A program made the position numbers and the translations under genes. A stretch of DNA of 64,000 bases, taken from Lumbricus terrestris. Lineage: Eukaryota; Annelida; Clitellata; Crassiclitellata; Lumbricidae. The notes under the pieces are model-generated. The model was not told where the DNA came from. It did no database searches and was given only the letters and a program-made list of their open reading frames with translations. The DNA lies in NCBI GenBank assembly GCA_949752735.1, contig OX457052.1, forward strand, positions 37,112,868 through 37,176,867. Reading direction: 5' to 3'. Below are positions 7,224 through 55,941 of the stretch, in pieces. Each line of letters opens with the position of its first letter. Position 1 is the stretch's first letter.

Positions 7224-7271
7224 GTGGCCCGACATCCTGTGATGCTAGGCCTATAATAACTATGCTAGAAT
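7224..7271 (+). repeat. Host core repeat copy III, left part (split by Gypsy-1)
   Basis: The run 'gtggcccgacatcctgtgatgc' and the following bases to GAAT match 44658-44715 in copy II. The repeat resumes at 18848 after Gypsy-1. GAAT at 7268-7271 is the left target-site duplication. Confidence 0.7.
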
Positions 7272-8730
7272 TGTAGCGAACCAGGTTGCTACTAGCCACC
7301 TTACTTATTTACTTAAGTAAGGCCGCTATTTCTATTGCGAATTCATGGGTGCTATGATTAGCGCAAATCGATGCGGTCATCGCTATTTTTAGCTTCCCCA
7401 TGCATTTGTCAATGGAATTTTCCACCACCTGCGATTTTTGATTGGTTGGACATCACGCGATGTTTTAGGCGCCAAGAAGCGGTCTTCTTAGGCAAAATTA
7501 ACGCGCAAACTGTCAGTCTGGACAAGGAAATTGAACGGGTGACACCTATGTCGATCGATTTCTTAAATTGTGGTAAAATTATACAGATCCGGCTCCGGCA
7601 AGTTTCCAGAACCAGGAGGACAAGGTTCCTTGGTAATTGGTTTGTCGATAAATGATGGTGAATCGTTTCGGGCACCGATTAAACGCATAATCGAAATTTT
7701 ATGGGAGAAATTGTGACGTTGGCTGAAGACACAATAAATCTTACAAGACGGGAAACGTGGATCGGCTGTCTTGAATATATCAATGGAACAGGGAAGTATT
7801 GCCATGCTAACCTATTGAGCTCGAACCAGAATTAAGTGTAAATCGATAAAACCTGCATTGCTAATTTTGACGCTGTTTAATTGAATCTACTCAGTCTGTG
7901 AACTGGGACAATAAATCTTAAATTAGTAAAGGAGCATAGTTAGTATTTAGAAGACCTTGATAGCGACCTATTACTATTGATTTCGTTTCTACTACTGTAC
8001 AAATAATTGATAATGAGCGACGGACAGTCACCCGATTAATTGTATAATAAATAACGCTTAAATAAGGAAACTGTGTATTTATTATTGCTATTAAAACCCG
8101 ATGGACTCGGACAGTGACTCAGACGGTGTACTGCAGATGGAAACAGGACACGAGGAGGACAAGAGGTGTCCTGAAGAAATGGTTGATTTGGAAACGACTG
8201 ACCATTCAACAAACCCTGACCTGATTTTGATATACCGACAAATGGCGACTATAGAACAATTTATGGAGCGCCAGGCTGATATTCTAACCAGTTTAACTGA
8301 TGAATTAGGCCAGGTTTCTGTACAACAGGGCAGACTAAATTCTCGCCAAGAAGAGAATGAAGTAAGAGTTAAGTCCCTAACTGAAAGTGTAGCGGGTGGT
8401 GGAGCTAGGGGAAATGTTGAGGGATCGAACCCAGATAAGCACCCTATCACAGGGGCTGTTGTGCTCTCAACAGACACCGCGTACATATGTCCGATACCGG
8501 CTCATCCTGTGGAAGGTAACCAGAGAAGCTCCCACCCTAGGTTAGGACTTGAACCGGCTACCATTGATAATAAGGAAACCCTACAGGGAAGGGTGGGGCA
8601 CCTTACCGACCCGGAAACCCTTGATCTGGGACCCAGACTCCCTCAACAACGCCCAGGGGAGCGCGCAGCAGTGGAACCCATTAATTGGACAGGAAATAGT
8701 TATGGAGAGCTGGCGCCCCCGCGCGTAACA
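7272..8730 (+). repeat. Gypsy-1 5' LTR (1459 bp)
   Basis: Starts TGTAGCG and ends GTAACA. It contains AATAAA near 7730, 7908 and 8046, an Inr-like TCAGT near 7890 and a TATA-like TATAATAAATAA at 8042-8053. The last 630 bp (8101-8730) are open and in frame with Gag. A 94-codon ORF at 7371-7655 is also kept in all three LTR copies, but its opposite strand is open too, so its meaning is unclear. Confidence 0.92.
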
Positions 8731-17388: not shown

Positions 17389-18847
17389 TGTAGCGAACCA
17401 GGTTGCTACTAGCCACCTTACTTATTTACTTAAGTAAGGCCGCTATTTCTATTGCGAATTCATGGGTGCTATGATTAGCGCAAATCGATGCGGTCATCGC
17501 TATTTTTAGCTTCCCCATGCATTTGTCAATGGAATTTTCCACCACCTGCGATTTTTGATTGGTTGGACATCACGCGATGTTTTAGGCGCCAAGAAGCGGT
17601 CTTCTTAGGCAAAATTAACGCGCAAACTGTCAGTCTGGACAAGGAAATTGAACGGGTGACACCTATGTCGATCGATTTCTTAAATTGTGGTAAAATTATA
17701 CAGATCCGGCTCCGGCAAGTTTCCAGAACCAGGAGGACAAGGTTCCTTGGTAATTGGTTTGTCGATAAATGATGGTGAATCGTTTCGGGCACCGATTAAA
17801 CGCATAATCGAAATTTTATGGGAGAAATTGTGACGTTGGCTGAAGACACAATAAATCTTACAAGACGGGAAACGTGGATCGGCTGTCTTGAATATATCAA
17901 TGGAACAGGGAAGTATAGCCATGCTAACCTATTGAGCTCGAACCAGAATTAAGTGTAAATCGATAAAACTTGCATTGCTAATTTTGACGCTGTTTAATTG
18001 AATCTACTCAGTCTGTGAACTGGGACAATAAATCTTAAATTAGTAAAGGAGCATAGTTAGTATTTAGAAGACCTTGATAGCTACCTATTACTATTGATTT
18101 CGTTTCTACTACTGTACAAATAATTGATAATGAGCGACGGACAGTCACCCGATTAATTGTAAAATAAATAACGCTTAAATAAGGAAACTGTGTATTTATT
18201 ATTGCTATTAAAACCCGATGGACTCGGACAGTGACTCAGACGGTGTACTGCAGATGGAAACAGGACACGAGGAGGACAAGAGGTGTCCTGAAGAAATGGT
18301 TGATTTGGAAACGACTGACCATTCAACAAACCCTGACCTGATTTTGATATACCGACAAATGGCGACTATAGAACAATTTATGGAGCGCCAGGCTGATATT
18401 CTAACCAGTTTAACTGATGAATTAGGCCAGGTTTCTGTACAACAGGGCAGACTAAATTCTCGCCAAGAAGAGAATGAAGTAAGAGTTAAGTCCCTAACTG
18501 AAAGTGTAGCGGGTGGTGGAGCTAGGGGAAATGTTGAGGGATCGAACCCAGATAAGCACCCTATCACAGGGGCTGTTGTGCTCTCAACAGACACCGCGTA
18601 CATATGTCCGATACCGGCTCATCCTGAGGAAGGTAACCAGAGAAGCTCCCACCATAGGTTAGGACTTGAACCGGCTACCATTGATAATAAGGAAACCCTA
18701 CAGGGAAGGGTGGGGCACCTTACCGACCCGGAAACCCTTGATCTGGGACCCAGACTCCCTCAACAACGCCCAGGGGAGCGCGCAGCAGTGGAACCCATTA
18801 ATTGGACAGGAAATAGTTATGGAGAGCTGGCGCCCCCGCGCGTAACA
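17389..18847 (+). repeat. Gypsy-1 3' LTR (1459 bp)
   Basis: Near-identical to 7272-8730 at an offset of 10117. The LTR-borne Gag start is again open (from 18218) and runs out of the element to a stop at 18866-18868. Differences from the 5' LTR include two amino-acid changes in that frame (Val to Glu, Pro to His). Confidence 0.93.
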
Positions 18848-19479: not shown

Positions 19480-21885
19480 CTGATTAAAGATAATGTGCTG
19501 AACAATTATATAGGCTAACGACTTGTTTAGTTTATTCTCGTCTTGATCAGTATATTTTTGAAAAGCCGGTGGTTAAATATTTCATCCAGAGGTCGCGGAT
19601 ATTCGAATTTTTGCTGAACCTTAACTATAAGCTTAGTTATAGCCATTTATCGAATTCATTATATGCATTTATTGCGAATATTGCAAGCCTGGGCCCTGGG
19701 CCTATACTACCTATTGGCTTTTCTGAAAATCAATTAGATTATTGTGAAGAAAGCACTTTTCAGTAACGTAACCAGCAAACGAAGCTGAAACTTCCCAAAT
19801 AAGCTCAAGTCCCTCTGCCCACTATTCTATTCTATTCTATTCTATTTTGGGATTTATAAAGCGCTTCTCACAGTACAACCTAATCAGAGGCGCTCCCAGT
19901 GCGAAGAACTCCTGGAAAAAGAAAAGTCTTAAGACAACGGGCAGAAAAAGTAAAGCCTCCAGATAAAATCTGGGAACGAATAATAGGAGGAACGCCATTC
20001 CACAGTAAAGGGCAGACAGAGGCAAAGGCGCGATGTTGGGCTGTGGTAGTCCGAGATCGTGGTACAAGAAGATCGTGACGGTCTAAAGAGCGGAGAGGAC
20101 GTCCAACGGTAGCAGAGAAAGGCTTCCTAATAAGATCACAAAGGTAGCGGGGCGCTTGACCCAAAAACATCTTATAGGTAAGAAAAAGAATTTTATATTG
20201 AATCCGGGCAGTCAAAGGAAGCCAGTGAAGGTGCTCAGTCATGAAAGTCGAAATGTGAGAGAAATGAGGAAGGCGGGCAATCAAACGTGCAGATGCATTA
20301 AGTACCGATTGAAGAGGAGCCAGGCGGAATTTAGGTAGGCCAATGAGTAACGAGTTACAATAGTCAATGCGGGAACAGATGAAGGCATGGACCATAGAAG
20401 AAAAAATCGATGAAGAGACAGATCGCCTAATGGCACGTAAACGTCGCAGATGATAGAAACTGGACCGAGAAATATTAGAAATATGTGTAGAGAAGGAAAG
20501 AGTATTGTCAATAGTAACACCCAGGTCACGGACATTTGTCACAAAAGTAAATTGAGGAAAGTGCTTGGCAAGTAAAACGTAATCAAGCTTGTTAAGCTGT
20601 TGACGGACACTATCTATCGTGTCATTCACCACACTCATGACGGTTGAGCCCCATGCAAACGATTCTTTTATGTTGAAGATGAATCATTTTGCGTCTCCAT
20701 AATTATACTTGCCTCTCTAAGATGTGTACAAGACTTAAACCTGGCACAAATTTTGCAGTAAACCTTAAATGGGATAGGCCTACTTTAACACAACTTGTCC
20801 ATAACACGTACTGATCCAGAAGAGAGCGTATTTTTATTTTTCAATATTCTATCATCTGTCAGATGGGTGGAAAGTTGTTGGCGAAATAGAGCAGAAATGC
20901 AGCTGTTACCTCACAGAGTTTTGTGCACTGGGCCTACACTTCTAAAAGTCTAAAGCAAGACAGTGGGCATGCAGGTAGACCTGTTTGTAATGTGATCCTG
21001 TTGACTGCACCAGAAGTGCAAAATACGTAGGCTACATTTTATCTGAATATTAGGCCTACATACTTTTACAAGATACAACTGCAGGTTGTGCATTTCTTGA
21101 AATACTTGACGAATGAAACGCGCAGGGTTCCGCGAGCAAATAGTGCTTTGAGGAAGGTTCCGCCACTACAAAAAGGTTGAAAACCACTGGCCTACCGTAT
21201 ACAGTGTATTGCCAGCAGTGAAAGTCTCCGAAAGGATATTAAAAGGATGATTCATCATTTAGGCTACCATTCGTTATTTCCTGGGTAGCCTATGATAACA
21301 TATCGCTTAATCTGAGCTTTGGCTTCTGGAAATTATTTGCGGTAAAATAGAATTTGATTAGTAAAAAATAATTACATAATCTATCGCTTTAGCGTTCTAA
21401 ATATTATTATTCGTCTGACGCAGCGTTTTTAGGTCTATTTTTCATGAATCCCACTTCTGCCTTGGCATGAATGCGTTTCATCAATCCAGCTTCTATTTGA
21501 GCAATAATTTAATTTTTATCGATCGATCCTGCTTTCTATTTAAAAACAATTATTTTTCATGAGTCCAGCTCCAATTGATGCAAATCTATTGATCGTGAAA
21601 ATACTTTCACCAATCCGACTTCTATTTAGCAGGAATTATTTTCGTCAATCCATGGATGCAACGGTGAATAATTTAGAACGCTAAAGTTATATAATTACGA
21701 AGAATTCTTGCTTAAATAGAATGGATTGATGGAGGTAATTCTTGCTTAAATTGAGGTTGGATTGATGAAAATGCTCCTTTCTTAAATGTAAACTCAATGA
21801 CGAGAAAATTTAATAACCTAGGACTACTAACTTAAAGAGTAAACCTAACGTACTGTAGTAATGTGCGTAATTGTAGGCCTAGTAT
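19480..21885 (+). repeat. Host core repeat copy I, left part
   Basis: Starts 'tgattaaagataatgtgctg' and runs parallel to 33820-35418 with many small differences, apart from the LINE insertion at 19826-20607. It includes 'aaaggttgaaaaccactggc' near 21180, which resembles a hAT terminal segment. No host gene is visible; the short ORFs are not conserved between the copies. Confidence 0.75.
19826..20607 (-). mobile_element. 5'-truncated LINE (CR1/L2-like ORF2 C-terminus)
   Basis: The minus-strand frame shows late ORF2 motifs: TNVRDLGVTIDNTLSFSTHI, SRIDYCNSLLIGLP, LQSVLNASARLIARLP, HLHWLPLTARIQYKILFLTYK (cited in part) and a WNGVPP block. The frame is open from the insertion edge to the stop at 19880. 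The 3' tail is (ATTCT)n at 19826-19848, preceded on the element strand by 'gcgcctctgatta' and 'gcgctttataaat'. Target duplication CACTAT flanks it (19820-19825 and 20608-20613). Copy II at about 34168 keeps the empty site. The first residues of the longest ORF come from flanking host sequence. Confidence 0.85.
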
Positions 21886-23344
21886 TGTTACGCGCGGGGG
21901 CGCTAGCTGTCCATAACTATTTCCTGCCCAATTAATGGGTTCCACAGCTGTGCGCTCCCCTGGGCGTTGTTGAGGGAGTCTGGGTCCCAGATCAAGGGTT
22001 TCCTGGTCGGTAAGGGGCCCCACCCTTCCCTGTAGGGTTTCCTTATTGTCAATGGTGGCCGGTTCAAGTCCTAACCTAGGGTGTGAGCTTCTCTGGTAAC
22101 CTTCCTCAGGATGGGCCGGTATCGGACATATGTGCGCGGTGTCTGTTGAGATCACAACAGCCCCTGTGATAGGGTGCTTATCTGGGTTCGATCCCTCAAC
22201 ATTTCCCCTAGCTCCACTACCCGCTACACTTTCAGTTAGGGACTTAACTCTTGCCTCATTCTCTTCTTGGCGAGAATTCAGTCTGTCCTGTTGTACAGAA
22301 ACCTGGCCTAATTCATCGGTTAAACTGGTTAGAATATCAGCCTGGCGCTCCATAAATTGTTCTATAGTTGCCATTTGTCGGTATATTAAAACCAGGTCAG
22401 GGTTTGCTGAATGGTCAGTCGTTCCCATATCAACCGTTTCTTCAGGACATCTCCTGTCCTCCTCGTGTCCTGTTTCCATCTGTAGTACCCCGTCTGAGTC
22501 ACTGTCCGAGTCCATCGGGTTTTAATAGCAATAATTAATACACAGTTTCCTTATTTAAGCGTTATTTATTTTACAATTAATCGGGTGACTGTCCGTCGCT
22601 CATTATCAATTATTTGTACAGTAGTAGAAACGAAATCAATAGTAATGAGTCGCTATCAAGGTCTTCTAAATACTAACTATGCTCCTTTACTAATTTAAGA
22701 TTTATTCTCCCAGTTCACAGACTGAGTAGATTCAATTAAACAGCGTCAGAATTAGCAATGCAAGTTTTATCGATTCACACTTAATTCTGGTTCGAGCTCA
22801 ATAGGTTAGCATGGCTATACTTCCCTGTTCCATTGATATATTCAAGACAGCCGAATCACGTTTCCCGTCTTGTAAGATCTATTGTGTCTTCAGCCAACGT
22901 CACAATTTCTTCCATAAAATTTCGATTATTCGTTTAATCGGTGCCCGAAACGATTCACCATCATTTATCGACAACCCAATTACCAAGGAACCTTGTCCTC
23001 CTGGTTCTGGAAACTTGCCGGAGCCGGATCTGTATAATTTTACCACAATTTAAGAAATCGATCGACATAGATGTCACCCGTTCAATTTCCTTGTCCACAC
23101 TGACAGTTTGCGCGTTAATTTTGCCTAAGAAGATCGCTTCTTGGCGCCTAAAACATCGCGTGATGTCCAACCAATCAAAAATCGCAGGTGGTGGAATATT
23201 CCATTGGCAAATGCATGGGGAAGATAAAAATAGCGATGACCGCATCGATTTGCGCTAAGCATAGCACCCATGAATTCTCAATAGAAATAGCGGCCTTACT
23301 GAAGTAAATAAGTAAGGTAGCCAGTAGCAACCTGGTTCGCTACA
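21886..23344 (-). mobile_element. Solo LTR of Gypsy-1 family
   Basis: A 1459-bp LTR in reverse orientation with 4-bp duplication GTAT (21882-21885 and 23345-23348) and no internal sequence, the product of LTR-LTR recombination. It is more diverged from the Gypsy-1 LTRs than they are from each other. The LTR-borne Gag start (ATG at 22515) is still open for the whole U5 part, with about 17 amino-acid changes over 209 residues. Confidence 0.93.
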
Positions 23345-23387
23345 GTATAGGCCTAGTCATAGCACCGCTGGGATGTCTGACCACTTA

Positions 23388-33819: not shown

Positions 33820-35418
33820 TGATTAAAGATAATGTGCTGAGCAATTATAATGGGTTAACGACTTGTTTAGTTTATTTTCGTTTTGATCAGTTTATTTTTG
33901 AAAAACCGGTGGTGAAATATTTCATCCAGAGGTCGTGGATATTAGAATTTTTGCTGAGCCATAACTACGAGCTTAATTATAGCCATTTGTCGAATTCATT
34001 ATATGCATTTATTGCGAATATTGCAAGCCTTGGCCCTGGGTCCTATACTCTCTATTGGCTTTTCGGAAAATCAATTAGATTATTGTGAAAGAAGCACTTT
34101 TCAGGTCCGGAGACGTTACAAGCAAACGAAGTTTTAACTTCCCAAATAAGCTCAAATCCCCCTGCACACTATCTATCGTGTCATTCACCACACTCATGAC
34201 GGTTGAGCCCCATGCAAACGATTCTTTTATGTTGAAGATGAATCCTTTTGCGTCTCCCTTGCCTCTCTAAGATGTGTACAAGACTTAAACCAGGCACAAA
34301 TTTCGCAGTAAATCTTAAATAAGATACTTTGACACAACTTGTCCATAACACGTACTGATCCAGAAGAGAGCGTATTTTCTAGTTTTCTATATTCTATCCA
34401 TCTGTCAGATGGGTGGATATTTGTTGGTGAAATAGAGCAGAAATGCAGCTGTTACCTCACAGAGTTTTGTGCACTGGGACTACACTTCTAAAAGTCTAAA
34501 GCAAGACAGTGGGCATGCAAGTAGACCTGTTTGTAATGTGATCCTACCTATTGACTGCACCAGAAGTGCAAAAAACGTAGGCTACATTTTATCTGAATAG
34601 CCTATTACAGACTTTTACAAGATACAACTGTAGGTTGTGCATTTCTTGAAATACTTGACGAGTGAAACGCGCAGGGTTCCGCCATCAAATAGTGCTTTGA
34701 GAAAGGTTCCGCCACTAGAAAAGGTTGAAAACCACTGGCCTACCGTATATTGCCAGCAGTGAAAGTCTCCGAAAGGATATTAAAAAGGATGATTCATCAT
34801 TTATCATTCGTTATTTCCTGTGTAGCCTATGATAACATATCGCTTAAGCTGAGCTTTGGCTTCTGGAATTTATTTGCGGTAAAATAGAATTTGATTAGTA
34901 AAAAAATAATTACATAATCTATCGCTTTAGCGTTCTAAATATTATTATTCGTCTGACGCCGCGTTTTTAGGTCTATTTTTCATGAATCCCACTTCTGCCT
35001 TGGCATGAATGCGTTTCATCAATCCAGCTTCTATTTGAGCAATAATTTCATTTTTATCGATCGATCAGGACTGCTTTCTATTTAAAACAATTATTTTTCA
35101 CGAGTCCAGCTCCAATTGATGCAAATCTATTGATCAACCCCTCTCCTATTTAGCCTAAGTGAAAATACTTTCACCAATCCGACAGCTATTTAGCAGTAAT
35201 TATTTTCGTCAATCCGTGCAACGGTGAGTAATTTAGAGCGCTAAAGTTATATAATTAGCCTACGAAGAATTCTTGCTTAAATAGAATGGATTGATGGAGG
35301 TAATTTTTGCTTAAATTGAGGTTGGATTGATTAAAATTCTCCTTTCTTAAATGTAAACTCCATGACGAGAAAATATAATAACGTAGGACTACTAACTTAC
35401 AGAGTAAGCCTAACGTAT
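33820..35418 (+). repeat. Host core repeat copy II, left part
   Basis: Parallel to 19480-21885, without the LINE; the uninterrupted site is near 34168. It ends in GTAT (35415-35418), the left duplication of Gypsy-2. No gene was seen. Confidence 0.75.
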
Positions 35419-36607
35419 TGTAACGGACCCCGGTTAAGGGACCAAACGTCACGAGACAGGGCTGGGCGAAAGTATACCAGGAGCCGAAACCACCAACCCT
35501 GTCGTCACGGTCTCGTCGTCAAGTCCGGGGGGTAAGGCTTCAACTGGGGATTGAAGACTAGCCGACTAGGCTTAAACACGTTTATTGGCATCCAACGATA
35601 AGTAGGCAGACAAGGACAAGCAAGCGGACTCCACAGAACCGTTCCTGGAGGGGGACTCGATATGGACTGCAGCAACCCTTATAGCACCCAGGGTCCTCCC
35701 TACTGTCGTAGTCAGCCGTCCTGGCACCACCCGTCAGTCGAGAAGGTAGTCGCTGACGTCCGTCGAAGTAGTCGTCGCCAGTCCGTCAGGGGCAGAGCCC
35801 CGGTCCTGAGGAAGGATCCGACGACCGACCGAAGCGTAGCTCCAGGTAGGCGTACAGGAGTCCCTACCACCCTGTCCAGTGGGAGAAGCCGACGACCGAC
35901 CGAAGCGTAGCTCCAGGTAGGCGTACAGGACTCTCGACCACTCGTCGTCGCAGTCGTCAGTCCGTAGTCAGCCGTCGGAGGGTTCGCACCCCTCTAATGA
36001 GAGTAGGGAACCCCTAGACCGATGCTTAATGGCAAAGATCAATAGGGGCCGCGACACCCACTCCCATAGTCAGTCACCAATCGTCCCACGTTTTACCGCG
36101 AGTCAAGTGCCGGACAATTAGTCAGCTTCGTGGCCATCCAAGAGTCGGACTCTGAACAAGCAGAGTCTTGTCCTTATATACACTCGGGAGCGGTGCATGC
36201 TAGGCAGTGGGCGCGGCGTAAGCTAGGCCAACCAGTCGTATGCCGTCGTATGCCAGTGGGCGAGCCAGTCGTATGCCGGAGCCAAGAGGGCGTGGCGTGG
36301 CGTATACGCCGGGCGTATGCCAGCAGGTGAACCAGTCGTAGTCTGCGCCAAGAGGGCGTGGCGTATGCCAGCGTATGCCAGGCCAATCAGTCGTATGCCA
36401 GGCGTATGCCAGCAGGTAAACCCGTCATAGTCTGTGCCAAGTGGGCGTGGTGTGCACCAGCGTGTATGCCGGGCCAATCAGTCGTACGCCAGTCGTATGC
36501 CAGCGTGTATGCCAGCAGGTATGCCAGCAGGTATACCGGGCCAATCAGTCGCATGCTGCGTCAAAAGTAAAACCACGGCCAGGGGCAGTTTACCCAAAAT
36601 CTCCACA
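35419..36607 (-). repeat. Gypsy-2 3' LTR (1189 bp)
   Basis: Element-strand ends TGTGGAG and CGTTACA. It contains a TATA box TATATAAGG (36180-36172), a hairpin GACTCTG/CAGAGTC (36148-36167), AATAAA near 35585, a 71-bp-period duplication (35818-35933) and, in the U3 part (36230-36545), clustered CGTATGCCAG-type motifs. Confidence 0.93.
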
Positions 36608-37104: not shown

Positions 37105-37656
37105 CTAGTCGTCGATCCAGATGGGTTCCGGGTCGCACGACGGTGGTCGAGCGACGGGAAGGGCTGCCGGAAGGCACCCTTCGAAGACCCCTTGAAGAAG
37201 CTCGGTCGGCCAGTGTGGCAGCTCTTCGGCCATCCTGGACACAAACTGGTCCTTAGACATCGTCCCGGAAAGCGCACGGCCTTGCCGCACGATGTGCGCA
37301 GCCTCCGACCCGGTCATGGTCGGACCCAAGACCTCGTTCGGGACAGGGTCAGGAACGTCCATCAAGAAGCTTTCGTCAAAGCCTAGCGGGGCTTCGTCCG
37401 GAAACTCGACCGTCCCGAGCGCATCCGGAATGGTCAAGGCGTCGCTGGCGGGCAGGACTGCAGGCGAAATTCCGGTTCCCGAAGTAGAAGTGACGGTCGC
37501 CGCCCCCAAAGCAGCAGGGGCGGTCGAGACGCTTCCGACCCGTCGCGTCTGTAGTACGCGACAGCATTGTTGGTGACGCCACAGACGGCTTTGCGCGTGG
37601 ATCCCCTTGAACGTCTGGCCACAGGCGAGGCACCGGCGAGTGTCCTTGACTTCCAT
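37105..37656 (-). CDS. Gypsy-2 accessory ORF: 183-aa zinc-finger protein downstream of pol
   Basis: The ORF has the same orientation as Gag-Pol, in the position where an envelope gene may occur, but has no signal peptide or membrane segment. The N-terminus has a C2HC finger-like pattern: C9-x2-C12-x3-F16-x8-L25-x2-H28-x2-C31 (C32 adjacent), close to a C2H2 finger with three extra residues. The middle (about 70-110) is acidic and hydrophobic (FPDEAPLGFDESFLMDVPD), as in activation domains. The C-terminus has SKDQFVSRMAEELPHWPTEL. A TATATAAAG box ends 35 bases before the ATG (37656), suggesting its own transcript. I infer a DNA- or RNA-binding regulator, possibly captured from the host; I do not recognise a family. 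Confidence 0.6.
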   Translation of the reverse strand: MEVKDTRRCLACGQTFKGIHAQSRLWRHQQCCRVLQTRRVGSVSTAPAALGAATVTSTSGTGISPAVLPASDALTIPDALGTVEFPDEAPLGFDESFLMDVPDPVPNEVLGPTMTGSEAAHIVRQGRALSGTMSKDQFVSRMAEELPHWPTELLQGVFEGCLPAALPVARPPSCDPEPIWIDD

Positions 37657-37690
37657 CTTCCGACTGTTTATGATCCACGTCCACCAACGT

Positions 37691-37699
37691 CTTTATATA
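37691..37699 (-). promoter_or_regulatory. Internal TATA box before the Gypsy-2 accessory ORF
   Basis: The minus strand reads TATATAAAG, its first base 43 bases before the ATG at 37656. The predicted start about 30 bases downstream leaves a leader of roughly 10-15 bases. Confidence 0.5.
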
Positions 37700-37839
37700 G
37701 CCAGCAGAGCCGCTGTCAGGCGCACTGGAAATGTTCAAGGACCACGTAGGCGGCGTACGGCGTACGGCATACGGCATACGGCATACCGAACCAAGTAGAA
37801 GGACTCGTAGAAGGCGGCCTTGAACGAGAGGGCGCTCTC

Positions 37840-38115
37840 GAAGAGGAAGGGCGCACGCAGGCATGGGACCTGCGCGCCGACGAGGAGTAGAACGAGGAGG
37901 CGTCCGCGCACTGGCTTGCGCGCACCGACGAGGAACTTGCGCGCTCGAAGAGGAAGGGCGCACGCAGGCATGGGGCCTGCGCGCCGACGAGGAGTAGAAC
38001 GAGGAAGCGTCCGCGCACTGGCTTGCGCGCACCGACGAGGAACTTGCGCGCTCGAAGAGGAAGAGCGCACGCAGGCATGGGACCTGCGCGCCGACGAGGA
38101 GTAGAACGTCGCGCG
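37840..38115 (-). repeat. 107-bp GC-rich tandem repeat between pol and the accessory ORF
   Basis: Units start at 37840, 37947 and 38054 (about 2.6 copies, nearly identical), each with GAAGAGGAAG and CCGACGAGGAGTAGAACG. The period is not a multiple of 3, so the long Ala/Arg/Ser/Pro ORFs crossing it on both strands are artefacts. Confidence 0.85.
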
Positions 38116-38166
38116 CCGACATGCGCGCCGCCGAGGAATAGGCGCACGCCGTCATCCACAGGAACC

Positions 38167-41100
38167 TCACTGGAAGCGGACCGGCCTACGAACGACCCGT
38201 CGTGGTCGGTTCGAGACCGCTGTCGCTTCGTAGAAATTCTCGTCCGGCGAATCTCTCCTTGACGTTCCCTGTTCCGCTGTTCCGTCTCCCTGCGAAGCAA
38301 AGGACCTGGTCCTTGGCTGATCGTCAGCAGAGGACGTCGGACCATCACCGATGTTGACGCGCGGACTTCTTGGAGGAGTTTCCTCCGTAGGCGCTCCTCT
38401 CCAGCGGTGACGTGGCCTACGGCTGGAAGAAGCTGTGGCGTTGTCCGTTGTCTCGGCGCGTTGTCCTTCGGTCGTCCTAGCAGGCGACTCGCTCCATTGT
38501 CCTTTCGTACGGCCATTGCAATGGCGTAGTTTGTCGACGTGCGCCACGAACGGTTTAGCCTTCGGCGACTTCTGGAGGAGGTAGTTGACCGGACCGCACA
38601 CCCGCACAACCATCATAGGACCAGTGAAGTTCCGCTGGAACTTTGGGCTACGTCCCACATACTTCCTTGGACTGAAGTAGTAGACCCAGTCTCCTTCTTC
38701 AAATTTCGCAGGACGCACCCGCAGGTCATAGACGTGCTTGCGTCTCTCCGCGCCCTTCTTAAGGCTCTGGCGCGCGATTGCGTAGGCTTTCTCAAATCTT
38801 TCTGACATCTCAGCCACGTAGGTTGAATACGCGAGCCCGTCCGCATCGTGTTGCTCCGGAGGTCCGTAAGCGATATCCAGCGGCGTCCTGTTTTCCCTTC
38901 CGAAGATGAGGTAGTTCGGAGAGAAACCAGTCACATCATGAATCGAGGCGCGGTACGCTGCCATCACATACGGGAGGAATTCGTCCCAGTCTCGCTGATT
39001 TTCGCTCACCACCTTTCCCAGCATCGCATTGAGCGTGCGATGAAATCGCTCAATCATTCCGTTGCACTGCGGATGATAGCTGGACGTCCTCACTTTGTCC
39101 ACCTCCAATAACCGACACATCTCCTGGAACACTCGTCCTTCGAAGTTCCTTCCGCGGTCCGTCAGGATCTGTAGCGGCGCTCCGTAGCGGACGACAACCG
39201 TTTCCACCAGTCTTTGTGCAACAGTGGTTGCCTCCTGGTTCGCCATCGGAACGGCTTCGACAAACTTAGAAAAGTTGTCCATCATGGTCAAGATGTATAT
39301 GTTGCCCTTTCTGCTTCTAGGGTGCGGACCTGTGACATCCACACTCACTCTCTCCCACGGCTCCCCGCAGGGCATGACCTGCAAAGGACCTTGTCTCTGC
39401 AGTGCACCCCGCCGGTACTGGCAACATCGCTCGCAGTGTCGGCAAAACCTCTTTACATCTCCGGACCATCCGACCCAATAAGCCCGTCTGCGAACCTGCC
39501 ATCGGGTCCGTCGAACACCCAAGTGTCCACCGGTCACACCAGTATGCGCCAACCGCATATAATCTTCTTTAAGATCCTTAGGCAGAAGCACTTGTTCCGA
39601 TTCATCCGGTGTTCGTCGATAAAGCACATCGTCCTTCAAATACAATGAGTCTCGCTGATGCCAGTAGACCTTGACGGCTTCCTCTTCTTGTAAGATCTCC
39701 TGTAGACTTGGCATCCCCTCGTTTAGCCAGTCTCGGACGAAACGCAGCACCGGATCTTCTTTCTGCGAGTTCACCATATCTCTCGCACCGTCGTTTTCAT
39801 TCGAGACCTCAATCACCTCCCGTACCAAGTGATCCGTTGTTTCCGTCGATTCCCGGTGACACTGTCGACAGGGCTTCCTCGATAAAGCATCGGCGTTCCC
39901 ATGCTTACGTCCCGGTCTATGCAGTATCTCGAAATCGAACTCCGCCAGTTTCTCCAACCAGCGCCCTTGTTGACCAATAGGGTCGGGAGTATGTTGTAGC
40001 CACCTCAACGCAGCATGGTCCGTTCGGAGGGTGAACCGCCTACCCAGCAGGTACTGCCGAAAGACCTGGGTAAAGTGTACCACGGCCAACAACTCCTTCC
40101 TTGTAACACAATAATTTCGTTCCGCTGCTGAGAACAACCGGCTACCATAAGCGATGACCCGTTCTTCACCATCGATGCTTTGGGATAAGACACCACCAAT
40201 TCCCAGGTCAGAAGCATCACAGTCCAACGTATAAGCAGCGTCATCCACCGGTAAGCTGAGCACCGGAGCCATAGTCAAGACTAACTTCAACCGATCGAAC
40301 GCCCCTTGGCATTCGTCTCCCCACAAGAACGGCTGATCCTTCTTAGTCAAAGCAAACAAAGGTGCTGCAACCGTGGAAAATCCTCGAATGAACTTACGGT
40401 AGTAGGAACAGAGACCCAAAAACGCACGAACCTCCTTCAGGTGCCCAGGAGTAGGCCACTCAACTACAGCCTGCACCTTCGACGGGTCAACAGATATGCC
40501 ATCAGCAGTCACTATATGTCCAAGAAAAGAGACCGTACGTCTAAATAGATGACACTTGCTGGGCTTTAACTTCAAGTTAGCCTCCCTAAGTCTCTGAAAG
40601 ACTCGACGCAGACGATCCAAATGCTGGTCAGCGGTACTGCTAAAGATTATTACATCGTCCAAGTACACCAGGCACAGTTCAAAGTTTAACCCAGAAAGAA
40701 CAATGTCCATAAGTCGCTGAAAGGTGGCCGGAGCATTACATAGACCAAAAGGCATAACCTTCCAACGAAAAGTTCCCCGCCGAGTAAGGAAAGCAGTCTT
40801 ATCCGCATCACCCGGGTCCATGGCAACCTGATGATACCCGCTACGTAAGTCCAGGGTGCTGAACCACCCGGCTCCCGACAGAGCATCCAAACAGGCATCT
40901 ATTCTAGGGAGAGGATAAGAATCCTTCCGAGTCAGATTATTTAACTTCCGGTAGTCAATACAAAACCTTAAGGACCCATCTTTCTTCTTAGCGAGAACCA
41001 CATTCGCTGCCCATTCACTCACAGCAGGTTCCACAACTCCAGTAGACAACATTTGAGCCAATTGCGAATCAATAGCAGCCTGATACGGAAGCGGTTGTCT

Positions 41101-43134
41101 ACGTAAGGGTTGTCTCACGGGACGAGAGTCTCCAGTGTCAATCCTGTGTTGGGAAATCGTGGTTCGTCCCAAGTCCTGGTCTGTGGTCGAGAAAATGCCC
41201 TCATACTCTACTAATAGACCTTTCAACCGTTCCTTCACATCCGTCGGGACATCCTCCGAAATATCCTCCATAAGTCTCTCAACCAAATGGGTTTCAGGAC
41301 CCGTCTCTCTGTCATTTTCCTTCTTTACCTCAACATTTACGGGGTGCAGCTCACCCAACATTTGGTTAGCAGTCAACAATGCACATTGTTCATTCAAGTT
41401 TACTACACGAATGCACGTCCTATCGGCATCGTCATCAAGCACAACCCTCGCCACATGCAACCCAGGCTGGATCTCTTTAGACTCGGTCATCCACGCCTGT
41501 GCAGTGCTCGTCAAATTCCTATACTGCGTCTTGCATGGAATATCGCATTGGGACCTAGGGAGAACAGTTGTCTCCTCTGCGACCATCACCCTGCGGCACC
41601 AAAGCGAACCATTTCCTCTAACCAATGGGATACGACGACGACCCACAAAGAGCGCACCCTGTCCAAAACCAAGCCTACAGCGATGCTGTCTTAGCCAGTC
41701 CATCCCAAGCAGAGGCTCGCCTATCTGATCAGAGACAAGAAAGCAGGTATCAATGGTAAACCCTCTAGAGATTTGGATGGGAACATCCAGCTGACCCAAG
41801 ACTCTAATCGCAGTACCATTCGCAGCCAAAAGAATGCGGTCACTAGGCCGGAGCGGCAAACCATCAACATCAGACGAGGGAACCAGGCTTACCTCCGACC
41901 CAGTGTCCACTAGGCAAGTTCTTTGCTGTCCGTTGATTTCTCCACGGATGTAGATTGCGTTGTTCGTCACACCCGTCGTTCGGTCTCTCGTTGTGTGGTT
42001 GGTGACGATCGGTCCATTCTCGTTACGTGCGTCGTCTTGACGGTTGGAAGGCTGTCGTCGTTGGCGGCACTGGCGAGCCACGTGACCCACGCGTCCACAG
42101 TTGAAGCAGGTCACGGCTCGACCAAAGTTCCCGGAAGACCGTCCCGGAGGCGAAACCGGCGGAGAGGCGGTTGCTTCGGCGTTGAGACTCGTTCCGTACG
42201 AGCCTCGGAGTTCCTCCAGTGAACGGCTGATCTTCCCCTCCAGATCCTGTTGCCACTTGCGTTGCGCAGCGAAGAAGCTATCCAGTTGGGACTGAAGTTG
42301 TCCACCGGCGTCTCCATCTTGCGTTCCTCTCACCCGATTGGCTGGTCTCCGTCGGTCCTCCAGTTCCGACGTCTGCTGATACGCGGCGAGGCGAAGAGCG
42401 GTTCGGTACGCTTCGTCGATAGTCTTCGGCTCGCGTTCCCTCACCTTGAGAGACAACTCTCGATCACGGATCGCTTCGAGGAAAGCGTCCTTCGCGACGA
42501 TCTCCGTGGTTTCATTGGACGGAACCGGATAAGCAAGGACGACGAGTCTCCGGATATCGTGCAGCAGATCCCCAAGCGTCTCGTCGGCTCTCTGTCGGCG
42601 GTAGTACAATTGTGCTCGGAAGGTCTCAGCTTGACCTTCCGCGCCGTAACGTTGACGCAATCTCTCGACGAGCTGTTCGTACGTGACTTCCGTCCGGGCT
42701 CCGAAATCCCAGAGTAACTGTGTTGCTGCTTTCTCCAACGAGCAGCGGAGGAAGTCGACCTTATCGTCCGCAGTCCATCGGTTGTGTCTCGCGCACACAT
42801 CGAATTGCGCCAGGAACGACTCGAGGGATCCGGTTCCATCGAATTTCCCAGGCTTCATCGGGCTCCTCCGTTCCCCGACCAGACGACTGACTTTCTCCAA
42901 GACCTTCGTCTCCAAAGCGCTGGCGCCTCTCTCCGAAATCACCAGGTTCTTGTGGTCCTCCTTCGGGGAGTCGAAATCGATTTCCTCCAGAAAGCGGCTC
43001 GACTGGACCTCGTAGTCGATCAGGCCTTCCTTTCTTGGCGGCACGGGCGGCGAAGTAGTCGGGAAGCCAGGAGCAGTTCCATCCGTCCGAGTGCTCCACA
43101 TCGTTGCCAGTCTGTCCGAGTCACAGTCTCTCAC
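38167..43134 (-). CDS. gag-pol: Gypsy-2 Gag-Pol polyprotein (1655 aa, intact)
   Basis: A single uninterrupted frame. The Gag domain covers about 85-270 (FDGTGSLESFLAQFDVC onward), the CCHC knuckle CFNCGRVGHVARQC 343-356, and the protease DTG 410-412. RT has YLDD at 824-827 and RNase H starts near D971 (LDCDASD). The integrase zinc region starts near H1197 and the triad is D1266, D1326, E1362 (D-59-D-35-E). After a GPM variant of the GPY module the tail is basic and Ser-rich, ending RRPVRFQ, with no chromodomain. Domain order and length are normal for Ty3/Gypsy with Gag and Pol fused. The pol part is clearly related to Gypsy-1, but Gag starts outside the LTR and lacks the 600-residue N-terminal extension. 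Confidence 0.95.
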   Translation of the reverse strand: MRDCDSDRLATMWSTRTDGTAPGFPTTSPPVPPRKEGLIDYEVQSSRFLEEIDFDSPKEDHKNLVISERGASALETKVLEKVSRLVGERRSPMKPGKFDGTGSLESFLAQFDVCARHNRWTADDKVDFLRCSLEKAATQLLWDFGARTEVTYEQLVERLRQRYGAEGQAETFRAQLYYRRQRADETLGDLLHDIRRLVVLAYPVPSNETTEIVAKDAFLEAIRDRELSLKVREREPKTIDEAYRTALRLAAYQQTSELEDRRRPANRVRGTQDGDAGGQLQSQLDSFFAAQRKWQQDLEGKISRSLEELRGSYGTSLNAEATASPPVSPPGRSSGNFGRAVTCFNCGRVGHVARQCRQRRQPSNRQDDARNENGPIVTNHTTRDRTTGVTNNAIYIRGEINGQQRTCLVDTGSEVSLVPSSDVDGLPLRPSDRILLAANGTAIRVLGQLDVPIQISRGFTIDTCFLVSDQIGEPLLGMDWLRQHRCRLGFGQGALFVGRRRIPLVRGNGSLWCRRVMVAEETTVLPRSQCDIPCKTQYRNLTSTAQAWMTESKEIQPGLHVARVVLDDDADRTCIRVVNLNEQCALLTANQMLGELHPVNVEVKKENDRETGPETHLVERLMEDISEDVPTDVKERLKGLLVEYEGIFSTTDQDLGRTTISQHRIDTGDSRPVRQPLRRQPLPYQAAIDSQLAQMLSTGVVEPAVSEWAANVVLAKKKDGSLRFCIDYRKLNNLTRKDSYPLPRIDACLDALSGAGWFSTLDLRSGYHQVAMDPGDADKTAFLTRRGTFRWKVMPFGLCNAPATFQRLMDIVLSGLNFELCLVYLDDVIIFSSTADQHLDRLRRVFQRLREANLKLKPSKCHLFRRTVSFLGHIVTADGISVDPSKVQAVVEWPTPGHLKEVRAFLGLCSYYRKFIRGFSTVAAPLFALTKKDQPFLWGDECQGAFDRLKLVLTMAPVLSLPVDDAAYTLDCDASDLGIGGVLSQSIDGEERVIAYGSRLFSAAERNYCVTRKELLAVVHFTQVFRQYLLGRRFTLRTDHAALRWLQHTPDPIGQQGRWLEKLAEFDFEILHRPGRKHGNADALSRKPCRQCHRESTETTDHLVREVIEVSNENDGARDMVNSQKEDPVLRFVRDWLNEGMPSLQEILQEEEAVKVYWHQRDSLYLKDDVLYRRTPDESEQVLLPKDLKEDYMRLAHTGVTGGHLGVRRTRWQVRRRAYWVGWSGDVKRFCRHCERCCQYRRGALQRQGPLQVMPCGEPWERVSVDVTGPHPRSRKGNIYILTMMDNFSKFVEAVPMANQEATTVAQRLVETVVVRYGAPLQILTDRGRNFEGRVFQEMCRLLEVDKVRTSSYHPQCNGMIERFHRTLNAMLGKVVSENQRDWDEFLPYVMAAYRASIHDVTGFSPNYLIFGRENRTPLDIAYGPPEQHDADGLAYSTYVAEMSERFEKAYAIARQSLKKGAERRKHVYDLRVRPAKFEEGDWVYYFSPRKYVGRSPKFQRNFTGPMMVVRVCGPVNYLLQKSPKAKPFVAHVDKLRHCNGRTKGQWSESPARTTEGQRAETTDNATASSSRRPRHRWRGAPTEETPPRSPRVNIGDGPTSSADDQPRTRSFASQGDGTAEQGTSRRDSPDENFYEATAVSNRPRRVVRRPVRFQ

Positions 43135-43242
43135 CCCAAGTTCCTAGTTCTGTCGAAGTCCCTACTTGTCAGGCCAAAACCAAAACCAAAACCAAAACCC
43201 CGGGCACTAAATGTCGAAGGTCACAATATCCACAAGACCAAA

Positions 43243-43292: not shown

Positions 43293-44481
43293 TGTAACGG
43301 ACCCCGGTTAAGGGACCAAACGTCACGAGACAGGGCTGGGCGAAAGTATACCAGGAGCCGAAACCACCAACCCTGTCGTCACGGTCTCGTCGTCAAGTCC
43401 GGGGGGTAAGGCTTCAACTGGGGATTGAAGACTAGCCGACTAGGCTTAAACACGTTTATTGGCATCCAACGATAAGTAGGCAGACAAGGACAAGCAAGCG
43501 GACTCCACAGAACCGTTCCTGGAGGGGGACTCGATATGGACTGCAGCAACCCTTATAGCACCCAGGGTCCTCCCTACTGTCGTAGTCAGCCGTCCTGGCA
43601 CCACCCGTCAGTCGAGAAGGTAGTCGCTGACGTCCGTCGAAGTAGTCGTCGCCAGTCCGTCAGGGGCAGAGCCCCGGTCCTGAGGAAGGATCCGACGACC
43701 GACCGAAGCGTAGCTCCAGGTAGGCGTACAGGAGTCCCTACCACCCTGTCCAGTGGGAGAAGCCGACGACCGACCGAAGCGTAGCTCCAGGTAGGCGTAC
43801 AGGACTCTCGACCACTCGTCGTCGCAGTCGTCAGTCCGTAGTCAGCCGTCGGAGGGTTCGCACCCCTCTAATGAGAGTAGGGAACCCCTAGACCGATGCT
43901 TAATGGCAAAGATCAATAGGGGCCGCGACACCCACTCCCATAGTCAGTCACCAATCGTCCCACGTTTTACCGCGAGTCAAGTGCCGGACAATTAGTCAGC
44001 TTCGTGGCCATCCAAGAGTCGGACTCTGAACAAGCAGAGTCTTGTCCTTATATACACTCGGGAGCGGTGCATGCTAGGCAGTGGGCGCGGCGTAAGCTAG
44101 GCCAACCAGTCGTATGCCGTCGTATGCCAGTGGGCGAGCCAGTCGTATGCCGGAGCCAAGAGGGCGTGGCGTGGCGTATACGCCGGGCGTATGCCAGCAG
44201 GTGAACCAGTCGTAGTCTGCGCCAAGAGGGCGTGGCGTATGCCAGCGTATGCCAGGCCAATCAGTCGTATGCCAGGCGTATGCCAGCAGGTAAACCCGTC
44301 ATAGTCTGTGCCAAGTAAGCGTGGTGTGCACCAGCGTGTATGCCGGGCCAATCAGTCGTACGCCAGTCGTATGCCAGCGTGTATGCCAGCAGGTATGCCA
44401 GCAGGTATACCGGGCCAATCAGTCGCATGCTGCGTCAAAAGTAAAACCACGGCCAGGGGCAGTTTACCCGAAATCTCCACA
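43293..44481 (-). repeat. Gypsy-2 5' LTR (1189 bp)
   Basis: Promoter elements on the minus strand: TATATAAGG at 44054-44046, then a perfect hairpin GACTCTG-6-CAGAGTC at 44041-44022 near the expected transcription start, and AATAAA near 43459. It is identical to the 3' LTR except for three bases. Confidence 0.94.
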
Positions 44482-45423
44482 GTATTATAGTAATGTGCGT
44501 AATTGTAGGCCTAGTATAAGAGTCATAGCACCGCTGGGATGTCTGACCACTTATGTAAGCTACCCAAGAATCTAACTAATAATTAGGCATAGGCCTACGA
44601 CTAACTATTAATTGGATCCATGGGTAGTCTATTTGAGCCTAATCTCTCCGCTACGCTTTAATGACATAAGTGGCCCGACATCCCGTGATGCTATGCCTAT
44701 AACTATGCTACAATTAATATCAATACGCCCAGTAATATAAAACAGTTAAGCTTACTTCATAAGATTCTCATTATTGCTTCAAATTTATTAATGTCCAATT
44801 ACACTAATGGACACAAATCATTTATTTAAGAAAATATACACTTTAAGTCCGTAAATATAGGGGGCGATTTTTGGTAGGGGGAGACTTTGTATCGCAGAGG
44901 GGGAGATTCTTTTTAGATCGGGAGACTTTGTTCCGATACAGAGTCTCCGGGGGAGACTCTGTATCAGCAAGGGGGAGACTCTGTTTCGGGGGAGACTTTA
45001 TTTCGTGACACCGGCGCATAATCTCTTTCGCATTAGGGACTCCGAAGGGAGACTAAACTTTTTGTTATGTCCGCGATGTTCTGTATGTTTAGAATCAAAT
45101 TCACATCCGTGCAATCAAGTCTCCAGGGGTAGTATAATAGGGACGACCAGAGCAACACGCAGATGTTTTCGTCTGGTAAAGACGCCAGATGTCAGTCACT
45201 AGACTAGACAGTTAGTCAGCTTCTGTGGGGTTTCAGTATGCCGACAAAATAGATAGAGAATAATACGCTTGTCACCAAGATTAGTGGTTGTGCATGACAA
45301 TTGCATCTCCTACCACGGAGAAATTGCTCAGTGAACGAGTTTTTACGTGTGTCATCTCATCACCTTTTAGCCGGGAGGCAAATAGGTGAAGCGATTCTAA
45401 ATACAACAAATTTGCTTACTACA
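44482..45423 (+). repeat. Host core repeat copy II, right part
   Basis: Parallel to 23345-24950 without MITE-A, the family-b insertion or the solo LTR, so it supplies the empty sites for those insertions. It includes the hairpin-rich GGGGGAGACT segment at 44875-45015 ending TTTCGTGACACCGG. Confidence 0.75.
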
Positions 45424-47689: not shown

Positions 47690-49582
47690 CAGAGCCCTGC
47701 GCCGGCCGCGCCGCGCCGTCGCCGCCGACACTTTGCGGGCGCCGCCGCCGCCGATTTTGTTGAGTCGGCGCGCCGACGCCGCCGCCGCCGAAAATTTGTC
47801 GGCGCGCCGCCGATGCCACGCGGATTCGGTTATTTCTTTTCGTTGCATTTTCATATGTTGCATAAAAAATTGCTCCGTCAATGAAAATAGAATCTTTCTC
47901 TTATATAGGCCTACTTTGATTTTTCCTGGCAACACCGTTTTTGCATCAATGCTATGAAACCTATGATGCTACCTATTTGTTTGGACTTTTCGAGCGGTGC
48001 GCTTAACGTTTAAAATTTTGAGGATTTTGGGATTTGATTTGAATGATGGCATCAACAAAGGTAAAAAAGAACTCCAGGTATGCCTAAGTGAATACTATGC
48101 CGTGTGTGCGTTAATTCCTGAAAGTCCGCAAGGATGGAACAGAACCGTCTGCCCTCTATTATTAGGATACACGTTACTATTATGTTGCAAAGAGGTGGCG
48201 CTCTGCAATTTTATGTAGGCGATTGGTCGTGTCTACAGGCTTGTGATTCTCCATTGCCGGCCAGTTACTACCTAATTCCAATTTTTCTCGCCAGTATCAA
48301 ACCCCTGCACTGTACGTGACCTATGTGAAATTGGTGATTAATTAAGCTTTCGAACATTATTAGGCTTGTCTATATGCACAGTGGAGTAATGTTAGGCAAT
48401 TGGACAATAGATCCTATTTTGTCAACAACTTGAGCAACGTCTCATAAATGGGATCAGATTAGGAAAATAAAAACATTTTCCGCACAAAACAAGTGTAACT
48501 TAGGGTGACTTGGCCTGCTTAGATGGAAAGACTTGTACATAGCAATTTTTGGATTTAAAAAAAGATGCTAAGAGTTTCGCTTGGAAGTCGTTCGGATTAT
48601 TGGCCGAAAATCAAAAGGGTGGTGAATTCTGATCAAGTTTACTACTCAGTGTGCGTTGACAAGGGAAAATTTAAAAAAAACCTGCACAAAGCCTCTTCTG
48701 TTGATAAGATTGCATGATAACTCCCACTTTGTGGCAGATAAATATTTCTACGCAAACACAGTACGTATGTATGTATGTATGCGTTTATGTATGTATGAAT
48801 GTATGTATGTATGTATGCGAGTATGTATGTATGTATGTATGTATGTATGTATGTATGTATGTATGTATGTATGTATGTATGTATGTATGTATGTATGTAT
48901 GTATGTATGTATGTATGTATGTATGTATGTATGTATGTATGTATGTATGTATGCATGTATGCATGTATGTATGTATGTATGTGTGTATGTATGTATGCAT
49001 GTATGCATATAATCTATGTATGTATTTATGCATGTCTGTGTATGTATGTGTATGTATGTATGCATGTTTGCATGCATGCAGATATACAATTTCAGCAGGT
49101 CGCGTCAAGAAAAATGGGCCTTTAGGCTATAATTTCTGACGGGTCATAAGGCAGGTCAAGAGTAAAATAGGCAGGTAGCGCAAACAGTCCTTTAAGTGTT
49201 ATTAGTAGGCTACGTAAGCTGGCGGCCTGAATTTGAAAACGTTGTCATGTGTTTTTCTTAATCAAGCCTTTGCAGAGTTTTGTAATTGAACGTTAATTCA
49301 GGGAGTAATTGTTTCTAATCAATGCTGACTAAAGACAAGATAATAATTGCCAAAATAATGGCTGAACACGCTTATCTTGATAATATAGGGTTCTTGTGTA
49401 ACAGCATTCAAAATAATTATGCGACGCTGGAGCAGTAATTCCACGACGCCGCGCTGCGCCGCCGACGCCGACATTTTGAGGACGCCGCCGCCGCCGATTT
49501 TTGTATGTCGGCGCGCCGCCGCCGCCGACTAAAAATGACCGGCGCGCCGCCGCCGACACTCTCATGTCGGCGCAGGGCTCTA
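47690..49582. mobile_element. hAT-A: non-autonomous hAT element, 1.9 kb, GC-rich subterminal arrays
   Basis: The ends are CAGAGCCCTGCGCCG and the complement of TAGAGCCCTGCGCCG, both fitting the hAT YARNG pattern, with perfect 8-bp duplication CATGTAAC (47682-47689, 49583-49590). Genes 1 and 2 keep the unoccupied site. Arrays of GCCGCC and GGCGCGCC fill the outer 130-170 bp of both ends in an AT-rich host. The inside holds a long (GTAT)n array and no transposase. Confidence 0.9.
48766..49078. repeat. (GTAT)n microsatellite
   Basis: About 60 or more tetranucleotide units, nearly pure between 48820 and 48950, with GCAT/GTGT variants towards both edges. ORFs of Met-Tyr-Val-Cys or Ile-His-Thr-Tyr repeats here are artefacts. 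Confidence 0.95.
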
Positions 49583-54590: not shown

Positions 54591-55143
54591 TTACTGAATG
54601 AACGAATAAATGAACGAATGAATGAATGACGATTGATTGAATGAACGAACGAATGAACGAATGACGATTGAATGAACGAACGAATGAACGAATGAATGAA
54701 TGAATGACGATTGAATGAATGAACGAATAAATGAATGAACGAATGAATGAATGAATGAATGTATGAACGAATGAATGAACGAATGAATGAATGAATGAAT
54801 GAATGAACGAATGATTTAATGAATGAATGTATGAACGAATGAATGAATGGACGAATGAATGAATGAATGAACGAATGAATGAATGAATGACGATTGAATG
54901 AATGAACGAATAAATGAATGAACGAATGAATGTATGAAGGAATGAATGAACGAATGAATGAATGAATGAATGAATGAATGAATGAACGAATGAATGAGCG
55001 AATGAATGCATGAATGCATGATTGCATGAATGCATGAACTAACGAATGAATGGATGAACGAATGAATGAATGAATGAATGAATGAATGAATGAATGATTG
55101 AATGAATGAATGAACGAACGAATGAATAAATGAACGACTGAAT
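54591..55143. repeat. (GAAT)n/(GAAC)n tetranucleotide array in intron 2 of gene 4
   Basis: About 550 bases of imperfect GAAT with GAAC, GATT and GACG variants. Long ORFs of Phe-Ile-His-Ser type across it are artefacts. Confidence 0.92.
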
Positions 55144-55170: not shown

Positions 55171-55941
55171 CTTCCGATGTTTTCGAGTGTTGAGTTGATT
55201 TCAGTGCGTCAGCTGTTGTCAAGGCAACAGTGGATTCTTCTGCGACTTCATCCGTTGCTTGGGTCTTGCTGTTTGTAAGTTTAGTGAGTTGTTTATCCAT
55301 TGTGATTGATGCTGTTGAGAAAGATGTAATGCTTGAGTCTAGCGAGTTGCAAATACCAGATGATGCTTCTGTTGATGATTCACATGCGGAGTCCTTTGAA
55401 ATCTCAGTGTTTGTGGTTATTCCAGTCTCTTGTGTTGTTGTTATTTCAGTCTCTTGTGTTGTTGTTATTGCAGTCTCTTGTGTTGTTTTTGTTTCAGTCT
55501 CTTGTGTTGTTGTTATTGCAGTCTCTTGTGTTGCTGTTATTTCAGTCTCTTGCGTTGTTGTTATTTCAGTCTCTTGTGTTGCTGTTATTTCAGTCTCTTG
55601 TGTTGTTGTTATTTCAGTCTCTTGTGTTGTTGTTATTTCAGTCTCTTGTGTTGTTGTTATTTCAGTCTCTTGTGTTGTTGTTATTTCAGTCTCTTGTGTT
55701 GTTGTTATTTCAGTCTCTTGTGTTGTTGTTATTTCAGTCTCTTGTGTTGTTGTTATTTCAGTCTCTTGTGTTGTTGTTATTTCAGTCTCTTGTGTTGTTG
55801 TTATAGTTTGAGTGTTTGAAGTATCATCCCTGTCCCGGATCTCCGATGTCGTTGATCTTTCATTTGCCAAATCGTCGATCGTTCTTTCAAAGCAAGTGTT
55901 CGTTAGTTGGCAATTTGCATAACTCGATGACTCTTGATGAC
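55171..55941 (-). CDS. Gene 4 exon 2: stalk exon expanded by an 8-residue coding minisatellite
   Basis: A 771-nt open exon with acceptor GCTGTAG (55948-55942) and donor GTAGAA from 55170, phase 1-1. It starts HQESSSYANCQLTN and ends AEESTVALTTADALKSTQ..SEG, the family ends. Between them lie about 16 tandem 24-bp units (about 55424-55805) encoding ITTTQETE with a few Ala or Lys variants, so the stalk is about 257 residues, nearly twice the others. Thr makes up about half of each unit, so dense O-glycosylation is likely (inference). An ORF on the opposite strand across the repeat is an artefact. Confidence 0.75.

Follow-up and report, generated by a model that had tools for sequence, protein, structure and literature searches.

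The window (the whole 64,000-nucleotide stretch of Lumbricus terrestris DNA analyzed here) contains, on its minus strand, a young Ty3/Gypsy element that carries a small gene, ORF3, between pol and its 3′ LTR. With a probability of roughly 60%, its product would be an activator that binds motif arrays in two places, the LTR U3 and ORF3's own internal promoter, switching on first itself and then the element. Transcription of LTR retrotransposons is usually taken to rely on host factors, whereas feedback through an activator that the element itself encodes is typical of complex retroviruses. The broader reading is that, independently of foamy viruses, a Ty3/Gypsy lineage evolved a complete two-promoter circuit in which the arrays are swapped together, the activator of a lineage acts chiefly on that lineage, and nonautonomous copies survive in trans; we would give this even odds. 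The element is laid out as follows.

43293–44481, minus strand: 5′ LTR, 1189 bp, TG...CA ends; target-site duplication GTAT at 44482–44485
44112–44399, minus strand: 5′ LTR U3 array, 12 GGCATAC (minus-strand reading)
44046–44054, minus strand: 5′ LTR TATA box, TATATAAGG
38167–43143, minus strand: gag-pol reading frame of 1658 aa, or 1644 aa when counted from the MWSTRT start
37752–37786, minus strand: internal-promoter array, three GTATGCC then two GTACGCC, head to tail; the U3 motif reversed
37691–37699, minus strand: internal TATA box, TATATAAAG
37663–37667, minus strand: predicted initiator, ACAGT; start predicted from sequence at about 37665
37105–37656, minus strand: ORF3, 183 aa plus stop
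37558–37632, minus strand: ORF3 putative finger, residues 9–33, C-x2-C-x15-H-x3-C, basic, predicted beta-beta-alpha
37330–37446, minus strand: ORF3 acidic middle, residues 71–109, no basic and 10 acidic residues, hydrophobic-studded; predicted mostly disordered with one short helix
37174–37311, minus strand: ORF3 C-domain, residues 116–161, conserved, predicted three-helix
35419–36607, minus strand: 3′ LTR, 1189 bp, differing from the 5′ LTR at three positions; target-site duplication GTAT at 35415–35418
36238–36525, minus strand: 3′ LTR U3 array, 12 GGCATAC
36172–36180, minus strand: 3′ LTR TATA box

The element belongs to Ty3/Gypsy (Metaviridae), as fits its LTR ends, its 4-bp duplication, and the order of Pfam domains in the 1658-aa frame: knuckle (345–361), protease (399–486), RT (719–878), RNase H (941–1069), and integrase (1188–1358). 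The spacer between pol and ORF3 (37750–38166, and the same place in other copies) has a high GC content and consists of variable tandem repeats of ∼105 bp; it holds long open frames in several frames, and its length varies strongly among copies. Elsewhere, the window contains minisatellite arrays at 48717–49048, 54630–55100, and 55315–55890 (8/12-base and 24-base periods) and three copies of a ∼1.46- to 1.48-kb repeat (7256–8732, 17389–18847, and 21884–23360), one of them inverted and 96% matched to the others.

The original prediction placed a 183-aa sense ORF downstream of pol, and this was confirmed: the frame runs stop to stop over 37105–37692, with its ATG at 37656 and a TAG stop, and it follows the gag-pol frame (43143–38167) in the same sense. 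Its length alone means little, because stop-to-stop frames beside it in the GC-rich stretch reach 138–298 aa. A search of the 1.06-Gb genome with the DNA of the ORF3 stretch gave at least 18 matches, the window included. ORF3 is open in all 13 copies that span it (window included), at 183–194 aa. The remaining five matches comprise a truncated copy (L023), three broken ones (L021, L022, and L024), and a whole but diverged ORF3 (L025) of 179 aa, with ∼45% protein identity to the window's ORF3 in the same genome. Breakage of the ORF in other young copies, named beforehand as an observation that would speak against the idea, is absent from 12 of the 13 other window-family copies seen. The exception is L023, whose LTRs are identical over 1376 nt and which has lost its promoter array together with roughly 120 codons from the start of ORF3; as a young copy whose ORF3 is incomplete, it counts against our reading.

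We also searched the genome with the L025 DNA, which gave at least 47 matches; 20 places were examined, 17 of which span ORF3 and three of which do not. With L025 itself included, the ORF3 frame is intact in 17 of 18 loci of this group, L043 being frameshifted. All 10 pairs tested, drawn from six of the 17 intact frames, gave dN/dS values of 0.12–0.25. The window family's pooled pN/pS for ORF3, 0.62, is a point against. Between the window and L025 families, dN is 0.45–0.47, and synonymous sites are at or close to saturation. Public assemblies likewise contain proteins of the ORF3 family (P0001, 87%; P0002, 44%; P0004, 41%), and three further proteins there match mainly in the C-domain. The intact frames in 13 of 13 copies, conservation at 45% protein identity, and the low dN/dS together exclude a chance ORF, and on this pattern of conservation, ORF3 is a selected gene of the element. 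Sense ORFs after pol in LTR retrotransposons have been described as env-like in the available parts of two accounts (PMC8220671, PMC7264820), and ORF3 might by that analogy be an env leftover, or else a captured host fragment, with no regulatory role. We regard this as highly improbable: purifying selection in every pair tested contradicts it, Pfam gave no env-like match in gag-pol or ORF3, and ORF3 has its own conserved core promoter and a finger-acidic-helical layout.

The protein divides by charge into a basic segment (residues 1–43, +9/−2), an uncharged one (44–70, 0/0), and an acidic one (71–109, 0/−10). The finger-like C2HC N terminus and acidic middle that had been predicted are both there, with C9, C12, H28, and C32 invariant in 14 aligned rows. 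Whole-protein models had low confidence (mean pLDDT 55 and 59). Within them, the finger is modeled as beta-beta-alpha (strands 6–8 and 15–17, helix 21–31) at pLDDT 70–87, and in the second model residues 116–161, which contain most of the residues common to the public relatives, form three helices at pLDDT 73–89. The profile and structure searches of the translation proposed with the original prediction gave no significant match in Pfam, PDB (sequences), BFVD (folds), or any viral model or solved structure searched, and structure searches with the ORF3 models gave nothing decisive. Of 15 ORF3 members, five matched zf-WIZ in Pfam, with an E value no better than 0.18.

Upstream of ORF3, the predicted box is present as TATATAAAG, 34 nt ahead of the ATG. 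The element contains three TATATAA, one in each LTR and one before ORF3, the internal one being the only copy outside the LTRs. The T of TATAAA and the C of an initiator-like CAGT are spaced 31–32 nt apart in 13 of 13 window-family copies and 18 of 18 L025-group copies, with differing bases between. L010 and L011 carry a TATGTAA variant at the internal TATA; L024 reads TGTCAC in place of CAGT, and L049, read by eye, has CAGT there. The ORF3 transcript is accordingly predicted to start near 37665, with a leader of ∼9 nt.

The two promoters share motifs. Each LTR U3 carries 12 GGCATAC upstream of its TATA box, and three inverted copies (plus two GTACGCC) lie within 200 bp upstream of the internal TATA; the remaining 6495 internal nucleotides contain none, and the 55 kb of the window outside the element contain seven. 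In 1000 dinucleotide shuffles, its U3 count never exceeded two, and the best U3-by-promoter 7-mer product was 36 compared with a maximum of 9 in 1000 shuffles. When 130 internal 200-bp windows were ranked by their match to the U3, the best were the four at the internal promoter. All 13 copies carry a promoter array of 3–9 GTAYGCC. The U3 and internal arrays differ in orientation and spacing and so are not simple copies of each other. Against our reading, the GTACGCC variant also occurs twice per LTR downstream of the LTR TATA box.

Related lineages have the same layout with other motifs: GTCTACWTMTTCAGC at both promoters in the L025 group and GTCTACWTAGKCC in L024 and L049. Every L025-group internal promoter (18/18) has one to eight copies of GTCTACATCTTCAGC, ending 41–46 bp before the TATA box; 38 of the 39 sites are exact, and the sole copy in L038 is a one-base variant. 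The group's 3′ U3 arrays consist of GTCTACTTATTCAGC (84 of the 86 exact sites); the other two, L044's one exact U3 site and one site in L031, read GTCTACTTCTTCAGC, and matches in L040 are all looser. In nearly all sites, two bases distinguish the internal-promoter motif from the U3 motif. Elsewhere in the 18 loci, 17 of which are only ∼4 kb long, such 15-mers are confined to 12 in the L025 5′ LTR. By exact 7-mers, L025 alone gives a weak signal (41, vs. 39 for windows nearer the 3′ LTR) that becomes clear only with the 15-mer. GTCTACWTAG-type repeats lie in the U3 and internal promoter of L024 and L049 and in three further U3s of their lineage (L050, L051, and L053), and the best U3 matches among 86 internal windows of L024 again fall at the internal promoter.

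To compare lineages, we scored each U3 against each internal promoter for six loci (the window, L024, L049, L025, L029, and L044), expressing scores as z values relative to 300 shuffles. The window's U3 scored 7.8 with its own promoter, a value reached in 0 of 300 shuffles, vs. 0.0, 1.1, −1.2, 2.1, and 1.7 with the promoters of L024, L049, L025, L029, and L044, respectively. Within-group scores were 4.1–9.7 for L024/L049 and 4.1–8.5 for L025/L029/L044. The blocks are not clean: the L024 U3 scored 3.7–4.3 with L025-group promoters, the L029 U3 scored 5.1 with the L024 promoter, and the L044 U3 scored 3.8 with the window promoter. Shared GTCTAC and GCATAC explain part of this overlap, with GTCTAC linking the L024 and L025 groups. 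Judged from these comparisons, motifs appear to have been replaced in parallel at the U3 and internal promoter across lineages.

Shared motifs need only a common trans factor, and that factor could be a host transcription factor that binds the arrays and drives ORF3, whose product would then act otherwise, for example on RNA, particles, or chromatin. The finger does not track the motif in a simple way, which fits such a factor. The window family has two finger alleles with different finger helices but shared arrays, and one of them, ARRSKWRH, resembles the L025 finger ARRSRWRH, yet the arrays differ; specificity may therefore depend on more than the finger. These two alleles on one array and the motif overlap between the L024 and L025 groups argue most strongly against a simple finger code. 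Unless the protein dimerizes, a single finger is also a slender basis for specific DNA binding. However, the window lineage's motif is wholly unlike that of relatives in the same genome, and at both promoters at once, which is easier to explain if the binder is borne by the element, and the basic finger and acidic region of ORF3 look like those of a transcription factor. We consider a host factor possible but clearly the less probable explanation.

The arrays would also suit an antisilencer like VANC of the Arabidopsis VANDAL transposons, binding them to remove repressive chromatin or DNA methylation. As far as the available parts of the VANC account go, the targets of such proteins are often tandem repeats, which vary from one related element to another, and the target spectra of related VANC proteins differ (PMC5735166), and the arrays here behave similarly. 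However, the methylation loss caused by VANC spans whole elements in that account (PMC5735166), whereas the motif here lies upstream of TATA boxes, and ORF3 has an acidic activator-like segment; such a role seems unlikely, more so than a host factor.

The behavior of the copy family bears on an activator that works in trans. Ten of the 13 copies (L009–L011, L013–L018, and L020) share a ∼2.2-kb pol deletion running from RT to integrase, with the segment replaced by ∼270 bp (length read in L009); the window, L012, and L019 retain this part of pol. A frame of gag and protease plus a tail stays open at 999–1020 aa in eight of the 10 and is interrupted in L017 and L020, and ORF3 is retained in all 10. 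These copies are a successful nonautonomous subfamily, outnumbering the full-length copies among those seen. LTR pairs differ by 0–4 mismatches (gaps aside) in 11 of the 12 copies measured, a set that leaves out L009 and L011; the other, L018, has 41 and is not clearly young. Conversely, in the stretches examined, U3 arrays are kept in seven copies without a whole ORF3 (L023, L045–L047, L050, L051, and L053). Persistence of these arrays also suits a host factor. ORF3 kept without RT and integrase and U3 arrays kept without a whole ORF3 are both as expected if an activator works in trans.

Among the alleles of L009–L020, ORF3 is a mosaic of two finger, two acidic-middle, and two C-tail types, and the five or more combinations seen suggest that copies have recombined. 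At three places (C18:1696091–1710142, C13:8934193–8947500, and C2:8073254–8088626), element copies are regularly spaced in one orientation, apparently as tandem arrays with shared LTRs.

The same anatomy would suit negative feedback, with ORF3 a repressor that limits copy number through both promoters, and conserved young copies would keep ORF3 in that case too. We think this improbable, below even the antisilencer. The acidic hydrophobic middle resembles activation domains and not known repressor motifs, and ORF3 is retained in copies that have lost RT and integrase, but neither point is decisive.

In the activator circuit that we propose, basal activity of the internal promoter would supply the first ORF3 protein. 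Its basic zinc-finger-like N terminus, perhaps with the C-domain, would bind the motif, and the acidic middle would recruit the transcription machinery. The protein would thereby boost its own promoter, and the feedback would later fire the LTR. The activator could serve family members in trans, including copies without RT and integrase. The original prediction's proposal that an element-encoded regulator with an internal promoter could control the LTR gained strong sequence support from selection, from the nearly fixed TATA/initiator spacing, and from shared arrays apparently replaced in parallel; the binding, activation, and transcription steps are inferred from these features.

If the circuit is real, its occurrence in a Metaviridae element would suggest that such circuits had more than one origin. 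The lineages would also provide, within a single genome, naturally diverging pairs of protein and target for studying how selfish promoters escape host control, as well as a source of simple sequence-specific activators.

Several known systems share parts of this design. In maize En/Spm, the transposon protein TnpA binds repeated subterminal motifs and activates its own promoter, but En/Spm is a DNA transposon that is not known to have a second promoter, and TnpA is a transposition protein. VANC is likewise element-encoded and, set beside ORF3 by description, often has tandem-repeat targets that vary between related elements; unlike the element here, VANDAL is not an LTR retrotransposon, and VANC is described as acting by DNA methylation loss throughout the element (PMC5735166). 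Closer in class are the plant Ty3/Gypsy elements Grande and Retand, which also carry accessory genes between pol and the 3′ LTR. According to the available parts of the accounts, Grande gene23 encodes a nuclear protein and has its own promoter, and many of the additional ORFs of Retand are predicted to bind DNA (PMC7264820, PMC11963269). Accessory genes with their own promoter are thus known in plant Ty3/Gypsy elements from Grande (PMC7264820, PMC11963269), but compared by description, these ORFs are antisense, whereas ORF3 is sense. Those parts do not mention a motif array shared with the LTR (PMC7264820, PMC11963269), and in the accessible text of the literature searched, mostly outside subscription journals, we found no Ty3/Gypsy activator with LTR-shared arrays.

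The closest parallel is the Tas/Bel1 system of the foamy viruses (Spumaretrovirinae). In the available parts of one account, Tas has an acidic activation domain and acts first through high-affinity internal-promoter sites and later through U3 sites, and its response elements lie in the U3 and internal promoter with no obvious conservation between species (PMC3798896). The Ty3/Gypsy element, too, encodes a small putative regulator near its 3′ end with an acidic segment, DNA binding and activation being predicted for ORF3. In both, a TATA-type internal promoter immediately precedes the gene for the regulator, recognized here from sequence by TATATAAAG and a CAGT at 31–32 nt. The shared motif arrays at the U3 and internal promoter here would be the counterpart of the foamy virus response elements if they respond to ORF3. 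Foamy virus internal-promoter sites bind more tightly than U3 sites, and in the L025 group the motifs at the two places differ at two bases. In contrast to foamy viruses, this is a Ty3/Gypsy element whose gag-pol and ORF3 gave no env-like match in Pfam, the promoter is located in the pol–ORF3 spacer and not inside env, ORF3 has a predicted zinc finger, and the motifs form dense arrays. The searches of PDB sequences and BFVD folds that returned no significant match to ORF3 lacked a direct comparison with Tas and cannot exclude homology to it. By analogy, the ORF3 element is predicted to work like the foamy virus Tas/internal-promoter system without being a member of it.
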